Source of the DNA: a bacterium
GTDB lineage: Bacteria; T1Sed10-126
Direction: 5' to 3'
NCBI GenBank assembly: GCA_003557545.1
Contig: PWOD01000017.1
Coordinates: 1 to 7,336 of the forward strand
DNA length: 7,336 nucleotides
The notes beneath the pieces were generated by a model. It had not been told where the DNA came from, made no database searches, and worked only from the letters and a program-made list of their open reading frames with translations. Both the position numbers and the translations under genes were made by a program. How positions within the stretch are numbered: the stretch's first letter is position 1; each line of letters starts with the position of its first letter. Positions 393-6,879 of the stretch are shown here, piece by piece.

Positions 393-1826
393 TCATTCTG
401 CTGCTCGACCAAATTTAGGGTTCAAATATAGCTGTTCTAAACTCCAGAAAATCACAGCAGCTACAAACAGAAAAATCAACCTTGCAGGTGCCCCAAAACT
501 CAACAAACCCAACCAGCCAGCCACGGCAAGGAGTTTCAAAAAATCTCTTTTCTTACCTTCAACCGAAAAAAACCAGCCCAGTACAGGAAGAAAAATAACC
601 GCAATCAAACGGCCACCCTCAGGCAGAGCTGGAAACAGCTCCGGTAAATAAATGAAGCCTGGAATGATCAGCAACAGGAGAACAAAAAATATCAGGTCCT
701 CAAGATAAAGCGGCTGTTCACTCCAGTCTGCTTTGGGCCAAAAAAACAACACAGCCCCAACGACCAGTCCAATTAAAAGTTCCTCTGAACCGAGCAGTGG
801 AGCAAACCTATAGGGATAATAGATCAGGCCAGTTCCCAGCATACCGGCCAGCAAATACCAGCCATAGGCACGGCTTCCACGACGCCAGCCTAGACGTAAA
901 AAACCAGCCATAATAACTCCCGTGAGCACGGGATGACTCCAGCCAAAGGGGGCAAAAAATATTACTGCAACCCCGGCAACTATCCAGTTGTAAAAGGTTT
1001 CATCATAAGTAATTCCTAACAGAAGCAGAATGGCTCCCAGAAAAATAAATGCCAGCGAGTAAAAAACCGAGCTGAGTGGAGCGATGGTTCCATTATACAG
1101 TTCTGCCGGAAGATTCCCGGCTATCAGATACCGCTGATTCTCCTCGAGCACCGTCTCTGGTTCAAGTTCAACAACCTCCACACCTCGGCGCCATATATCA
1201 GTCAGTTTATCAACAAATCTATCGGGATAATAGCTGTCAGGTCCTGGCAAAATAACTCCCATTTCTGTTTCTGGACCGGGTCCCAGCAAAAACAGCTCAA
1301 GCTCCTCAGGACTATTCAAAACCAGGAAACTCGATCTGTTCTTGACCAGTGGGCTCTGTGGTTTTGCCAGCGGTTTATCAAAAAGTTGAGCAGGCGACAG
1401 GCTGGTTTCTAAAACATAAACATCAGGAAACCAGCTGCCGTCAAATCGCTGACCACGGTGGTCTCGATAGATCGATAGTTCGGGAATAGAATGGTTGACG
1501 AGACGGTAGATTGAACGCTGTTCAATAATCATATAGGTTTTTTCAGATCTAATATCAATCTCTCTTAACTGCGTAAATACAAACGGATTAAGCGGCAGTT
1601 GGGTTCGATAAAAATCAAACAGCTCCTGCCCGGTAAAAACACTTACCTCTCCCCGAGATACCAGATCTCCCAGCCTCTGCAAACGTAACATCCGAGGGCT
1701 GTCCTCCCGATAAATCTCCACCTGACGACCGAAACTCTCAATACCCAGCCGATGGAATAAAAGGCTGCCCGTGAAAAAAATTAACAGTCCAATAATTAGA
1801 TAACGTAAGGGTTTCGCTAATTTGAT
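393..1826 (-). CDS. Polytopic membrane protein of unknown function, probable AUC start
   Basis: I do not recognise this protein. From the proposed ATC start at 1826-1824 it is 477 aa. Residues 1-7 are basic, 8-25 form a membrane helix, and about 30-245 form a soluble, probably extracytoplasmic region. That region contains L-P-G-P-D-S-Y-Y-P-D-R-F near 193-204, followed by R-R-G-V-E-V-V-E-L. From about 250 to 463 there are roughly nine hydrophobic helices, and a short tail ends in R-A-A-E. The first conventional start in frame is a GTG at 1721-1719. Using it would delete a well-formed N-terminal helix that is open in frame directly after the prfB stop. No ATG, GTG or TTG lies between the in-frame TGA (1836-1834) and that GTG. 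The ATC gives M-K-L-A-K-P-L-R-Y-L-I-I-G-L-L, a typical membrane-protein N-terminus, and has an SD-like GGATGTGA at 1840-1833. It sits 1 nt after the prfB stop and 17 nt before the transglycosylase gene, so an envelope role is plausible but unproven. Confidence 0.8.
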   Translation of the reverse strand: MKLAKPLRYLIIGLLIFFTGSLLFHRLGIESFGRQVEIYREDSPRMLRLQRLGDLVSRGEVSVFTGQELFDFYRTQLPLNPFVFTQLREIDIRSEKTYMIIEQRSIYRLVNHSIPELSIYRDHRGQRFDGSWFPDVYVLETSLSPAQLFDKPLAKPQSPLVKNRSSFLVLNSPEELELFLLGPGPETEMGVILPGPDSYYPDRFVDKLTDIWRRGVEVVELEPETVLEENQRYLIAGNLPAELYNGTIAPLSSVFYSLAFIFLGAILLLLGITYDETFYNWIVAGVAVIFFAPFGWSHPVLTGVIMAGFLRLGWRRGSRAYGWYLLAGMLGTGLIYYPYRFAPLLGSEELLIGLVVGAVLFFWPKADWSEQPLYLEDLIFFVLLLLIIPGFIYLPELFPALPEGGRLIAVIFLPVLGWFFSVEGKKRDFLKLLAVAGWLGLLSFGAPARLIFLFVAAVIFWSLEQLYLNPKFGRAAE

Positions 1827-1827
1827 T

Positions 1828-2929
1828 TTAACTCACATCCGAACTTAGATAGGCTTCGATAAATCCGTCAAGCTCACCATCAAGAACCTTTTCAAAACTA
1901 TTTATTTCATATCCGGTCCTGTGATCCTTAACCTGTTGGTAGGGATGGTTCACATAGGACCGAATCTGGCTGCCCCACTCTATCGACTGCTTGGCTCCTT
2001 TGATCTCTTTGATATCATCCTTCTGCTGCTGGATTTTCAACTCCAGTAGACGTGATTTCAAGATTTTCATGGCAGTAGCACGATTTTTATGTTGACTCCG
2101 TTCATTCTGACATTTCACTACCAGCCCGCTCGGCTGGTGGGTGATTCGCACAGCACTATCGGTCATGTTAGCATGCTGGCCGCCCGGGCCACTTGACCGG
2201 AAAGTATCAACGCGGAGATCGGATTCATCGATTTCTACTTCATCATCAATCTCCAGATCAGGTGCAACCTGAACCGCCGCGAAGGAAGTGTGACGCCGAC
2301 TGTTAGAATCAAAAGGAGAGATTCTAACCAGCCGATGAACTCCTGATTCTCCCTTTAACTTTCCATAGGCATAGCTGTCATCCAACAACATAGTTAGATT
2401 TTTGATACCGGCTTCTTCACCGGGAGAAATATTGAGAATTTTATAATCAATCGACTCACTCTCAGCCCAGCGTCTGTACATCCGAAACAACATTTCAGCC
2501 CAATCGTGGGCTTCAGTCCCGCCAGCTCCCGGATTGATTGACAGAATTGCTCGACGATCATCATACTCTCCATCCAGGTAGAGTTGCCAGCGCAACTTAC
2601 TTAGAAGGTTTCCAACCGTCTTAAGACCCCTGTTTAACTCCGCCTCAAATTCAGCCTCTCCTGCTTCTTCTGAGAGTTCCAGCATCAGCTCCAGCTCATC
2701 CAGCTTTTCCTCTAACTGTGATATTCCTTCTATCTTCCTGTCTATCTCGCTGGCCTGCTTTGTGATACGACGAGCCGCCTGCTGATCGTCCCAAAAATCG
2801 GGCAGAGTCATCCGGGCCTGTAACTCTCGCTGAGTTTCCTCTAATTCAGACAGGTCAAAGATAGTCACTCAGTTCGATCAATGCTTCCCGTAATTTTTCC
2901 AAACGATCCCTATACTCACCATTATTCAC
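1828..2929 (-). CDS. prfB: Peptide chain release factor 2 (programmed +1 frameshift)
   Basis: RF2 recognises UGA and UAA stop codons on the ribosome and triggers peptide release. The first reading frame starts at GTG 2929-2927, 8 nt after AGGAGG, and runs 24 codons (ending E-L-S-D-Y-L) to TGA at 2857-2855. Slippage at CTT TGA C moves into the +1 frame (D-L-S-E-L-E), giving 366 aa, the usual RF2 length. Domain 1 is helical and coiled-coil-like (about 25-115). The core has G-A-G-G-T-E-A. The stop-recognition tripeptide S-P-F is at 204-206 (R-I-S-P-F-D-S). The peptidyl-transferase motif G-G-Q is at 249-251, in S-G-P-G-G-Q-H-A-N; the usual Val after GGQH is Ala. The position equivalent to E. coli residue 246 is Ser, one of the common forms. 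The C-terminus has W-G-S-Q-I-R-S-Y-V and H-P-Y..V-K-D-H-R-T. A conceptual start at GTG 2868 would be an artefact of ignoring the frameshift. It is the first gene of the left operon. Confidence 0.97.
1833..1840 (-). promoter_or_regulatory. SD-like site for the membrane-protein gene, inside the prfB 3' end
   Basis: GGATGTGA matches 7 of 8 bases of GGAGGTGA, the complement of the usual 16S rRNA 3' end. Its last base is 6 nt before the ATC at 1826-1824, a normal distance for an extended SD. It lies within the last codons of prfB, which favours translational coupling and supports the ATC start over the internal GTG at 1721. Confidence 0.5.
2854..2863 (-). promoter_or_regulatory. RF2 programmed +1 frameshift site
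   Basis: The ten bases TATCTTTGAC are identical to the E. coli prfB slippage site: CTT at 2860-2858, in-frame TGA at 2857-2855, then C. When RF2 is scarce the ribosome pauses at UGA and slips +1 to read GAC, which autoregulates RF2 synthesis. The stimulatory internal Shine-Dalgarno (AGGGGG in E. coli, immediately before TAT) is replaced here by AGTGAC and looks weak. Confidence 0.95.
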
Positions 2930-3187: not shown

Positions 3188-3595
3188 ATGACCGATACTA
3201 ATGACAGCTCTAACACAGGCAAACTATTTGAAAGTTTTGTTGAAAAGATCAAGTTTTTACGATCGGAGGAGGGATGTCTCTGGGATCGACAGCAGGATTT
3301 TGAGTCAATGTGTCCCCACCTGATGGAAGAGGCACGAGAGGTGGTTGAAGCCGTGCAGAGCGGGGATATATCAAGTGTCCGGGAAGAGCTGGGGGATCTA
3401 TTATTACATGTCGTATTTTTTAGCCAGATCGCCGCAGAATCAGGCGAGTTTACAATTACCGATGTGATTCATGAAATTAAACAAAAAATCATCCGACGCC
3501 ATCCACATGTGTTTGGCGATTTAGAACTTTCCAGCACCGAGGAGATAGTCACCAGCTGGGAAAAAATCAAACAGGAAGAACGGTCCAATTCCTGA
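3188..3595 (+). CDS. mazG: MazG-family nucleoside triphosphate pyrophosphohydrolase, single domain
   Basis: MazG enzymes hydrolyse NTPs or dNTPs to the monophosphate and pyrophosphate and are linked to nucleotide-pool cleaning and stress responses. The 135-aa protein has the all-alpha MazG fold signature. C-L-W-D (30-33) replaces the usual C-P-W-D. The first metal-binding pair is E48-x-x-E51 in M-E-E-A-R-E. The second is E67-x-x-D70 in E-E-L-G-D-L-L-L-H-V-V-F. R-R-H-P-H-V-F-G follows at 103-110. It ends at W-E-K-I-K-Q-E-E-R, which is the end of the first domain of the 263-aa E. coli MazG. The second tandem domain is therefore absent, and the native TGA with no trace of the second domain suggests a natural single-domain form. 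GGAGG (3176-3180) is 7 nt before ATG 3188. It is the only plus-strand gene, divergent from prfB and convergent with the transporter. Substrate cannot be read from the sequence. Confidence 0.93.
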   Translation: MTDTNDSSNTGKLFESFVEKIKFLRSEEGCLWDRQQDFESMCPHLMEEAREVVEAVQSGDISSVREELGDLLLHVVFFSQIAAESGEFTITDVIHEIKQKIIRRHPHVFGDLELSSTEEIVTSWEKIKQEERSNS

Positions 3596-3612: not shown

Positions 3613-5268
3613 TTATTCAACATAGCTGAAACTAACCTCCAGAGATTTTCTGGAAAAGCAGGTTTCAAACCAGTTTTCCGCCGGGCTCTCCTGAAAATTT
3701 ATCACTATTTCATCTGTATCAAAGGTCGCTTCAATTTCCCTGAGTTCAGACAGCAACTCCTCTGAGAGAAACACAACCTGCCCGCTGGCAATTAACCTGT
3801 TGACAGTGGTCAATAGCTTCTCCTGTGGGAACTCCCCGGCCGGAGAACAGCCATTCAGCCGTAAAATCTTCCCAAACAACCAGTTTTCAAACAGTTTTTC
3901 CGGTAAAAAAGAATGAAGTTTGCGGGGCAAAAGATAGCTGAGCAAAAAAAGCTTTTCAACCGATGGTTCTCCAGAAATCATCAGGATGCCGCTACCCCGA
4001 TAGGGTAACAGATCAGTTTGCCTGCTTTCCAATCGATAAAATAGATGAACATAGAGCCAGAGAAAAAATCGGGTCCAGAGACGGGGAAGAAAAAACAGCA
4101 GTAGCCCGGTCACCACAAGAGTTGCCGCTCCCACGATAAACAGTACTGTCTGGGGACCATAACCAAGCAGCTCAACCAGCAAAACATAGACGGCCGCCGA
4201 AAGAATAACCCCGGTAAATGTAAAAACATTAGCAGTCGCCAGCAAATCTCCCTTTTTGTCGGCCGGGGGTCTTTCCTGCAATGCCGTCTGAAAAGGGATT
4301 AAAAAGAGAGCGGAGAAGATTCCACTGATGAACAGCCAGAAATAAGCTGCGGCGGGGGTGCTATCAACCAGCGACAGGAAAAACTGGCTGAAGGTAAGAC
4401 CTGATGCTCCCAGAGGTATAAGACCAAGTTCAACCTTTTTTTCGGACCAGCGACCGGCCAGTAAACTACCTATTCCAATCCCCAGGGCCAGCGCCACAAA
4501 CAACAGGCTGGTCAATAGTTCACCAACCCCCAGTACTTCCAGACCATACACGTTGATAACAATGGTAAGAATTCCACCGGCCATCCAGGCATAGGCAAAT
4601 CCAATTATTAGGATGAACAGAACCCGGTCGCGCAGGATCCAGCTAAGACTGCGGGCAAAACGGTTCAAAGGAGAATAATCAATCGACAGCTGCGGGGCGG
4701 CCGGCGGCAGCGGTCGAATTAGCCAACCACTGAACAATCCGACGGCAGAAATAACAAAGAAAAAGATCCCCAACAGATAGGCCGGAGCCATTTCAAGCAT
4801 AACTCCTGCCAGGGCCACCCCCAACAAAATGGCTGCATAACTTGACATCTGAAGCAAACCGTTCCCTTCAGACAGCTGTTCATAATTAAGCAACTCCGGA
4901 ATAATTCCATATTTTGCCGGACTAAAAAAAGCACTCTGGGCAAACATAAAGAAGATCATCAGAAGCAGCATATGAAGGTTGCCCTGCCAGGCGGCAAACC
5001 CGGCCACGGTCATCACCAAAAGTTCTGCGCCCTTGGTCCAGAGAATAACTGTTCGCTTACTATAACGATCGGTCAACTGACCGGCCAGGGGAGAAAAGAA
5101 GATAAACGGCAGGGCAACAAAGGCCATGGCACCGGCCTGTTGCTCGCCCCCCACCATCTGTACCGCCAGCAATAAGTAGGTCTGCCGCAGAGCGTTGTCG
5201 TTTAAAGCTCCCAGAGCCTGAGAAATAATCATCGCTGTAAAACTCTTGTTTTTAAATAGTTTAAACAT
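3613..5268 (-). CDS. LplT-like MFS lysophospholipid transporter fused to a degenerate PlsC-like domain
   Basis: Of 551 aa, residues 1-400 form an MFS carrier of about 12 helices. LplT-family marks are G-A-L-N-D-N-A-L-R near the start, the loop motif G-Q-L-T-D-R-Y-S-K-R (63-72) and S-P-A-K-Y-G-I-I-P-E-L (116-126). LplT flips lysophospholipids inward across the inner membrane. Residues about 407-549 align in order with PlsC/Aas acyltransferases: L-F-Y-R-L-E-S-R...L-P, then P-R-K-L-H-S-F-L...K-I-L-R-L-N-G, then N-R-L-I-A-S-G-Q-V-V-F, and a final L-E-V-S-F. The catalytic H-x4-D is replaced by G433...E438 and F-P-E-G by L-S-E-E (501-504), so acyltransferase activity is not expected. This domain is also shorter than usual. 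The start is ATG 5268, 8 nt after GGAG (5280-5277); the TTG just before it lies too close. It overlaps the lnt stop by 8 nt, implying coupled translation and a shared role with Lnt. Transport substrate is inferred from family and context. Confidence 0.85.
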   Translation of the reverse strand: MFKLFKNKSFTAMIISQALGALNDNALRQTYLLLAVQMVGGEQQAGAMAFVALPFIFFSPLAGQLTDRYSKRTVILWTKGAELLVMTVAGFAAWQGNLHMLLLMIFFMFAQSAFFSPAKYGIIPELLNYEQLSEGNGLLQMSSYAAILLGVALAGVMLEMAPAYLLGIFFFVISAVGLFSGWLIRPLPPAAPQLSIDYSPLNRFARSLSWILRDRVLFILIIGFAYAWMAGGILTIVINVYGLEVLGVGELLTSLLFVALALGIGIGSLLAGRWSEKKVELGLIPLGASGLTFSQFFLSLVDSTPAAAYFWLFISGIFSALFLIPFQTALQERPPADKKGDLLATANVFTFTGVILSAAVYVLLVELLGYGPQTVLFIVGAATLVVTGLLLFFLPRLWTRFFLWLYVHLFYRLESRQTDLLPYRGSGILMISGEPSVEKLFLLSYLLPRKLHSFLPEKLFENWLFGKILRLNGCSPAGEFPQEKLLTTVNRLIASGQVVFLSEELLSELREIEATFDTDEIVINFQESPAENWFETCFSRKSLEVSFSYVE

Positions 5269-6820
5269 CAACAGGGCTCCTTTTATCTAAGGTTATCCAG
5301 TTCTGTTCAATAATTCCCAGCAGTAATAATATCAAAACAGCAGCCAGAGTAACCCAATCACCATAACGTGTGTAGAACGGGATTTGCTGGGGCTCGGGCA
5401 ATCTAGCCCGAATAGTCCCCTGCTGATAAGGCGATAGATAGCTGATAAATCTACCCCGGGGGCCGATAATAGCAGAAACACCGGTATTGCCTGCTCGCAG
5501 TAGCGGGCGGGCTGTCTCCACAGCCCGCATCCGGGCCTGATAGCCATGTTGAACATGGGAAGCTCTGCTGCGTGACCAGCTATCGTTAGATATGGTAATC
5601 AGCAGATCAGCACCAGCTTTCACCTGATTTCTAACCAGACTGTTAAAAGCACTTTCATAACATATCTGGACTCCGATTTTAGTAAGTTCAGAAGCCGACT
5701 CAAGTTCTATCAATCCACCCTTTTTTCCGGGCCGGTAACCATGCGTGCCCGTCCGGCGGGCCAGCCGCTCTAACCAGCCATAACGGCCCATCAGTGGAAA
5801 ATACTCCCCTCCCGGGACAGGAATCCTTTTAGTGTAGAAACCGGCTATATCAAGGTCTCGATCAACCAGCAGAGCTGCATTCAAATAATCCAGCTCCCGA
5901 GGTTTAGGATCATAGACTGTGGCTCCTAAAAAAATATCAAATTGCCGGTTAGTAACCTGCTCGATAAAATTTTTAAACCCAATATCCGGCCATTCAAGCT
6001 GCTGATCTGAGACCCTAAAGGAAGGCCGAACCAGAACTGTCTCAGGCCAGACCACAAGATCTCCCGGTTGAGCCCCGGCCAGCGTCAAAACAGCCAGCCT
6101 CTGACGCTGTAGCTCTCCCGGAGAAGCTATTGCAGGATCTACAGAACTAACATCAGGTTGAACAATTAAAACTTCTCGCTCAGTTAACTGTGGTGGCATT
6201 GAGTAAAATCCATAAAACCCTGCTATGAGAAAAATTAATAGTACTGTTCCACTTAGAATAACGGTGCGCAATCGACATTTATCAGTTAACCAGGCGGCAA
6301 AAGCCAGGGCAGTAAACAGCCATAAACCACCCCAGAGATACTCCCCCATCCACCTAACCGGTTGAATTAACTCGGTTCGAGCTGCCAGGGCCATTGCGAT
6401 TCTACTCCAGGGAAAAGCAACGAAACGCTGGCCGAATAAACCAACCTCAAGCAGCCATTCAACTCCTATCCAACCAGCAACAGCTATATATAGTGACCCT
6501 TTTGACAGCCTCAGAACAACCGCCCAGAGGGCAAAATATAACCCCAGGACAGACAGAATCAGAGGTAAAACTAAAGGGGAATAGGAATAAAACCAGTAGG
6601 TGTGTAAAAGATAAAAAACAATTCCAAATAGTAGCCCTGATCGCCCGGCTTCTAACCAGGAGCCAGCCCGGTCAACCGCCAGATAAAGCAGCATAAAACC
6701 AACAGGAACCAGTAGATAAAATCCCCAGGGTGGATAAGCCAGACCAGAGATAATACCCCCGGCCAGAGCCATCAGACCGGGTTTATATTTTAATAGACTT
6801 TTGACCAGCCCAGAAATCAT
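5261..6820 (-). CDS. lnt: Apolipoprotein N-acyltransferase
   Basis: Lnt transfers an acyl chain from a phospholipid to the N-terminal cysteine of diacylated lipoproteins at the outer face of the inner membrane, completing maturation and leaving a lysophospholipid. Numbered from ATG 6820 (519 aa; E. coli 512), helices fill about 14-206, a nitrilase-fold domain spans about 215-475 and a last helix spans about 489-505. The catalytic triad is present: Glu260 (V-V-W-P-E-T), Lys331 (Y-T-K-R) and Cys387 (Q-I-C-Y-E-S). Glu339 sits in G-G-E-Y-F-P. S-N-D-S-W and R-M-R-A-V-E-T-A-R-P-L-L-R-A-G-N-T-G are also typical. The loop after Lys331 reads I-P-V-P-G-G-E where L-V-P-F-G-E is usual. For the start, ATG 6820 has GAGG (6830-6827) 6 nt upstream. 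The TTG at 6832 and ATG at 6826 overlap or abut that site and are less likely. The stop overlaps the transporter start by 8 nt. Confidence 0.96.
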   Translation of the reverse strand: MISGLVKSLLKYKPGLMALAGGIISGLAYPPWGFYLLVPVGFMLLYLAVDRAGSWLEAGRSGLLFGIVFYLLHTYWFYSYSPLVLPLILSVLGLYFALWAVVLRLSKGSLYIAVAGWIGVEWLLEVGLFGQRFVAFPWSRIAMALAARTELIQPVRWMGEYLWGGLWLFTALAFAAWLTDKCRLRTVILSGTVLLIFLIAGFYGFYSMPPQLTEREVLIVQPDVSSVDPAIASPGELQRQRLAVLTLAGAQPGDLVVWPETVLVRPSFRVSDQQLEWPDIGFKNFIEQVTNRQFDIFLGATVYDPKPRELDYLNAALLVDRDLDIAGFYTKRIPVPGGEYFPLMGRYGWLERLARRTGTHGYRPGKKGGLIELESASELTKIGVQICYESAFNSLVRNQVKAGADLLITISNDSWSRSRASHVQHGYQARMRAVETARPLLRAGNTGVSAIIGPRGRFISYLSPYQQGTIRARLPEPQQIPFYTRYGDWVTLAAVLILLLLGIIEQNWITLDKRSPVDV

Positions 6821-6879
6821 TGGCATCCTCAACAGGTATATGTATAAATTAAGCCGCTTCAGAATAAACAGTTAAAATT

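Follow-up and report, generated by a model that had tools for sequence, protein, structure and literature searches.

The window (the whole stretch of 7,336 nucleotides that was analysed) encodes, in this order, an rlmH-like gene (-) that was named by eye, lnt (-), a transporter gene (-), mazG (+), and prfB (-). The transporter gene, at 3613..5271 (-), encodes an LplT-type MFS protein with a C-terminal acyltransferase (AT) relic. The protein has 552 residues if translated from TTG and 551 residues if translated from the ATG at 5268. Upstream, lnt (apolipoprotein N-acyltransferase; 5261..6832 (-); PF00795, 1.3e-22, and PF20154, 7.9e-16) overlaps the start of the transporter gene with its end by 8-11 bases. 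Enzymes of this family produce lyso-PE. On the other side lies the convergent gene mazG (3188..3595 (+); PF03819, 1.6e-27), with only 17 bases between its end and the transporter stop codon.

Our sample of the phylum consists of two genomes, that of the window (G000) and that of a member of another genus (G001). The orthologous locus of the latter has the same transporter-mazG-prfB order. An lnt gene was not found within the 409 bases present on the contig upstream of the ortholog, and the overlap is not seen there. This locus is apparently the same as PWHN01000046.1 (MAG T1Sed10_126), according to the identical coordinates and protein found in a contig scan with an alignment. The alignment-based scan gave this one locus, and a contig scan with a single protein as the query gave no match.

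Two other genes of the window were described in passing. The gene prfB (2855-2929 (-) and 1828-2868 (-)) has an apparent classical programmed +1 frameshift: its zero frame encodes VNNGEYRDRLEKLREALIELSDYL and then reaches TGA at the CTT TGA site, and the +1 frame carries on into the RF2 body. The copy of prfB in G001 is a single reading frame. A membrane protein of 442 aa (393-1721 (-)) has no Pfam match; a similar-looking ORF of 465 aa is located at the matching place in G001 (L026, 3933-5330 (+)), flanked by prfB and a lytic transglycosylase-like gene.

An LplT-type transporter with an acyltransferase relic

A Pfam search with the ORF detected only MFS families (PF07690, 1e-27). The closest NCBIfam family is NF006386, which describes MFS-AT-AMP fusions (PRK08633, acyl-[ACP]--phospholipid O-acyltransferase). 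The full protein matches positions 3-516 of the 1147 positions of this profile with an E-value of 1.5e-99; the bit score of 334 is below the cut-off of 1221. The LplT profile NF008397 matches residues 8-390 (E 4.8e-29), again below its cut-off (101.6 bits against 297). The transporter part, residues 1-408 (4048..5271 (-)), is homologous to LplT and is not a certified equivalog. Its Asp25 aligns with Asp30 of Escherichia coli LplT, a residue reported to be essential for transport from the effect of D30N (PMC11416262). The identity between the window protein and its ortholog over the MFS part is 59-65%. The full protein gave no match when its sequence was searched against the PDB, and a second LplT-like protein was found in neither G000 nor G001. 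We conclude that the gene probably encodes an LplT-type flippase that returns damaged lipids to the cell interior; the flippase activity is attributed by homology and by the conserved Asp.

The C-terminal 144 residues descend, as the profile searches confirm, from the PlsC/Aas AT domain of MFS-AT-AMP fusions. The tail alone matches NF006386 at 6.5e-7. With an HMM of 23 active AT domains, taken from related loci, the window tail reaches 18.7 bits and the ortholog tail 33.8 bits, compared with 2.9 bits for the best of 1000 shuffles. A profile-profile comparison by hhalign recovers the AT homology with a probability of 98% (E 8e-14, score 86.4; 200 column shuffles reach at most 22.8). PF01553 does not match the window protein even at E 10, so that only the fusion-family profile or a profile-profile comparison reveals the relationship. 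These results uphold the original prediction, made from the sequence by eye, of an LplT-type transporter fused to an AT-derived domain, with the ORF, the domain boundary, and the motif losses where it had placed them. The prediction had also described about 140 residues that follow the AT order block by block. This holds for the first ~90 residues of the tail (409-498; 3778..4047 (-)), to which the HMM and hhalign matches are confined. The last 54 residues (499-552; 3616..3777 (-)) are an open frame without detectable AT homology: in the HMM search and the shuffle test their similarity to the AT profile and to the ortholog does not exceed chance. The wording about a domain shortened before a recognisable final strand is therefore unsupported.

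Both motifs of active acyltransferases have been lost. The HX4D slot (residues 435-440 in TTG numbering; 3952..3969 (-)) reads EPSVEK in the profile alignment, with the His and the Asp replaced, and TKKLST in the ortholog. The FPEG slot (residues 503-506 in TTG numbering; 3754..3765 (-)) reads SEEL, and VGDE in the ortholog; it lies beyond the significant HMM alignment and was placed by ungapped extension from the conserved Gly497. The alterations had been recognised correctly in the prediction, and its slots, G-x4-E at 433-438 and LSEE at 501-504, are each one residue off. Under either placement both motifs are absent, which supports the view of the tail as a catalytically dead acyltransferase relic. 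The suggestion that the fold is kept was not confirmed: AlphaFold with an alignment of two sequences (the window protein and its ortholog) gave a pLDDT of 35.5 for the domain and 37.1 for the full-length protein, and the tail sequence is only weakly constrained.

In comparison with MFS-AT-AMP fusions, the window protein has the MFS part and the beginning of the AT domain in common with them and lacks the AMP-binding acyl-ACP synthetase domain, the rest of the AT domain, and both motifs. A loss of the AMP-binding domain downstream by a frameshift or an early stop can be rejected: the ORF ends at 3613 and mazG directly follows, leaving no room for a cut-off domain. E. coli LplT (encoded with Aas, b2835/b2836) is similar to the window transporter in its MFS part, including the Asp30 equivalent, but consists of 397 aa and has no C-terminal domain. 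LplT and Aas form a 1:1 complex via the AT domain of the latter; the catalytic mutant H36A of Aas keeps its binding to LplT while acylation is abolished (PMC11416262). Two-domain MFS-AT proteins (e.g., L107-L111, L034, L047) have the same architecture as the window protein, i.e., an MFS part followed by a C-terminal AT domain without an AMP-ligase. Unlike the window tail, their AT domains contain HX4D and FPEG and score ~190-280 bits.

Age of the motif loss and constraint on the tail

The only ortholog compared, which belongs to another genus, also lacks the motifs, and an ortholog with intact motifs was not encountered. A recent decay in one strain is thus rejected. The ortholog also shares an Asn-to-Gly change before the His slot. 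Since the motif loss and this change are common to both genera, the loss most likely predates their split.

The tail has evolved about four times faster than the MFS part at nonsynonymous sites (dN of 1.01 and 0.27, respectively, between the window protein and the ortholog), which indicates weak constraint in this lineage; in active fusions the AT/MFS dN ratio is near 1. Because dS is saturated, dN/dS is not computable for the pair. The two tails are identical at 34 of 136 positions, a value inside the shuffle range (mean 28, max 39). Their lengths are 144 residues in the window and 153 residues in the ortholog, and both are open at saturated synonymous divergence, for which the chance under neutral substitution is ~0.001-0.03 per lineage. 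Selection on the tail in the window lineage is only suggested by these data.

Intact acyltransferases are encoded elsewhere in the window genome, namely a stand-alone PlsC with the motifs NHTSVLD and FPEG, and an AMP-binding-ACP-PlsC protein of 900 residues with NHLSYLD and FPEG. G001 likewise encodes both kinds (PlsC; AMP-binding/PP-binding/PlsC). The larger protein, which combines AMP-binding, phosphopantetheine-binding, and PlsC domains in both phylum genomes (L104, 685-3387 (+); L105, 901-3753 (-)), is Aas-like and includes an ACP-like domain.

Degenerate acyltransferase tails in other clades

Among the 386 genomes surveyed for homologs, the strong homologs with an AT domain are mostly full MFS-AT-AMP fusions with intact motifs. 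Degenerate AT tails were found in the order Chlamydiales and in L053/L122, L049, and L112; the tails of L053 and of the L048 type give no AT homology score alone and were called degenerate AT domains by position and by relatives only. The assignment to Chlamydiales is based on the major outer membrane protein family in G254, G382, G117, and G425, and, for the families without a match to this protein, on the order grouping of the genome search. For L112 and L049, which show AT decay in MFS-AT proteins, relatives from the same order are mostly intact, so that these recent cases could help to date the loss; L122 is another MFS-AT protein with AT decay.

The Chlamydiales LplT-like proteins (L041, L048, L064-L103) resemble the window protein in having an MFS part and a degenerate AT tail of comparable length. 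They differ from it in forming a separate clade of the tree, and many of their tails are better preserved, with scores of up to 85 bits; tails of the genus Chlamydia give no score. Of the 26 tail-bearing Chlamydiales proteins in the sample, none has FPEG. HX4D is retained in nine of the 26, and in those nine the loss of activity is judged by FPEG only. Dead tails are present across the sampled Chlamydiales families. In the genus Chlamydia they are under purifying selection, judging by omega values of 0.07-0.10, which are two to three times those of the MFS part and far below 1 (rough estimates, as dS is high). In three Chlamydiales genomes (G410, G416, and G424) there is a long frame of the MFS type, which at 1154-1187 aa equals a full fusion in length; G410 and G424 have the shorter form next to it.

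On the tree of the MFS parts, the label "dead" needs six changes, each required by supported branches; the window pair adjoins full fusions (support 80/86) outside the Chlamydiales clade. Independent losses of the AT motifs are therefore the simplest reading, in which the active state of particular ancestors is inferred. What is new here is that, by motif content, the loss recurs across clades in AT domains fused to LplT, including the 26 sampled Chlamydiales tails.

Possible roles of the tail

Our preferred explanation, which we regard as rather probable, is that the window protein is an LplT flippase, that a separate Aas-like enzyme has taken over reacylation, and that the fused AT domain persists on the cytoplasmic side as an appendage without catalysis, on a course toward loss. 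The protein would derive from an MFS-AT-AMP fusion in which the AMP-ligase domain disappeared wholly and the AT domain was stripped of its catalytic motifs. Lnt, whose gene lies upstream and overlaps that of the transporter, would generate lyso-PE in the inner membrane, the MFS part would flip it to the cytoplasmic face, and a separate enzyme would reacylate it in trans. For the latter, the best candidate is the AMP-binding-ACP-PlsC protein, whose gene lies at another place in both phylum genomes. The AT domain would stay attached as a non-catalytic appendage. Where it is still constrained, clearly so in Chlamydiales, it would most likely be an integral partner of the flippase with a structural or docking role, comparable to the AT domain of Aas with LplT in E. 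coli; in the window lineage it may be on its way to loss. The general path would lead from the shift of reacylation to a separate enzyme, through the loss of catalysis in the fused AT domain, to a domain that may be a scaffold and may finally vanish, leaving an MFS-only LplT. Both the trans partner and the docking function are inferred here. Of the roles proposed in the original prediction (lysophospholipid binding, gating, and partner docking), all of them hypothetical, docking is plausible because in E. coli the AT domain of Aas is bound by LplT even in the dead H36A form.

A stronger variant, which we hold only tentatively, is that the dead AT domain fused to LplT is a recurrent, selected pseudoenzyme module, i.e., a permanently attached scaffold for shaping the exit of the flippase or recruiting a free acyltransferase, conserved across Chlamydiales and arisen separately in the phylum of the window and in other bacteria. 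About as doubtful in general, and a serious rival for the window lineage, is the opposite explanation: an Aas-like enzyme took over, and the fused domain is a pure evolutionary remnant, functionless and decaying toward an MFS-only LplT as in E. coli. The fourfold faster change of the tail and its unalignable final 54 residues agree with such decay, as do the MFS-only homologs that occur among fusions on the tree, some frames of which may be cut by contig ends. On the other hand, the frame has stayed open and similar in length in both lineages despite saturated synonymous divergence, and in Chlamydiales the dead tails occur throughout the sampled families and are under purifying selection in the genus Chlamydia.

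Fast change in an open frame, together with repeated retention in unrelated clades, would also fit a new functional domain on the AT scaffold, e.g., a sensor or regulator, serving something other than acyltransferase docking. We consider it improbable, as the two orthologs have no conserved new motif in common. It is hardly credible that the tail has retained acyltransferase activity, by means of a rearranged active site or with another acyl acceptor: Glu residues at nearby positions and the Chlamydiales tails with HX4D and without FPEG are outweighed by the loss of both the His-Asp pair and FPEG in the window protein and its ortholog, by the unrecognisable second half of the domain, and by the effect of H36A on acylation by E. 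coli Aas.

With the non-catalytic appendage as the preferred explanation, the meaning of these proteins lies in their relation to the E. coli system, where the AT domain of Aas is the docking site for LplT, whether or not it is catalytically active. Flippases that carry a dead AT domain of their own would be a natural evolutionary test of the idea of catalysis-free docking, and they would show the conversion of fused systems into separate LplT and Aas. In our literature search there was no paper that covers both LplT and Chlamydia. C. trachomatis is thought to recycle lyso-PE via the separate enzymes AasC and LpaT (PMC6167442), and the LplT-like proteins of Chlamydiales are a candidate flippase for this known lipid-recycling pathway.
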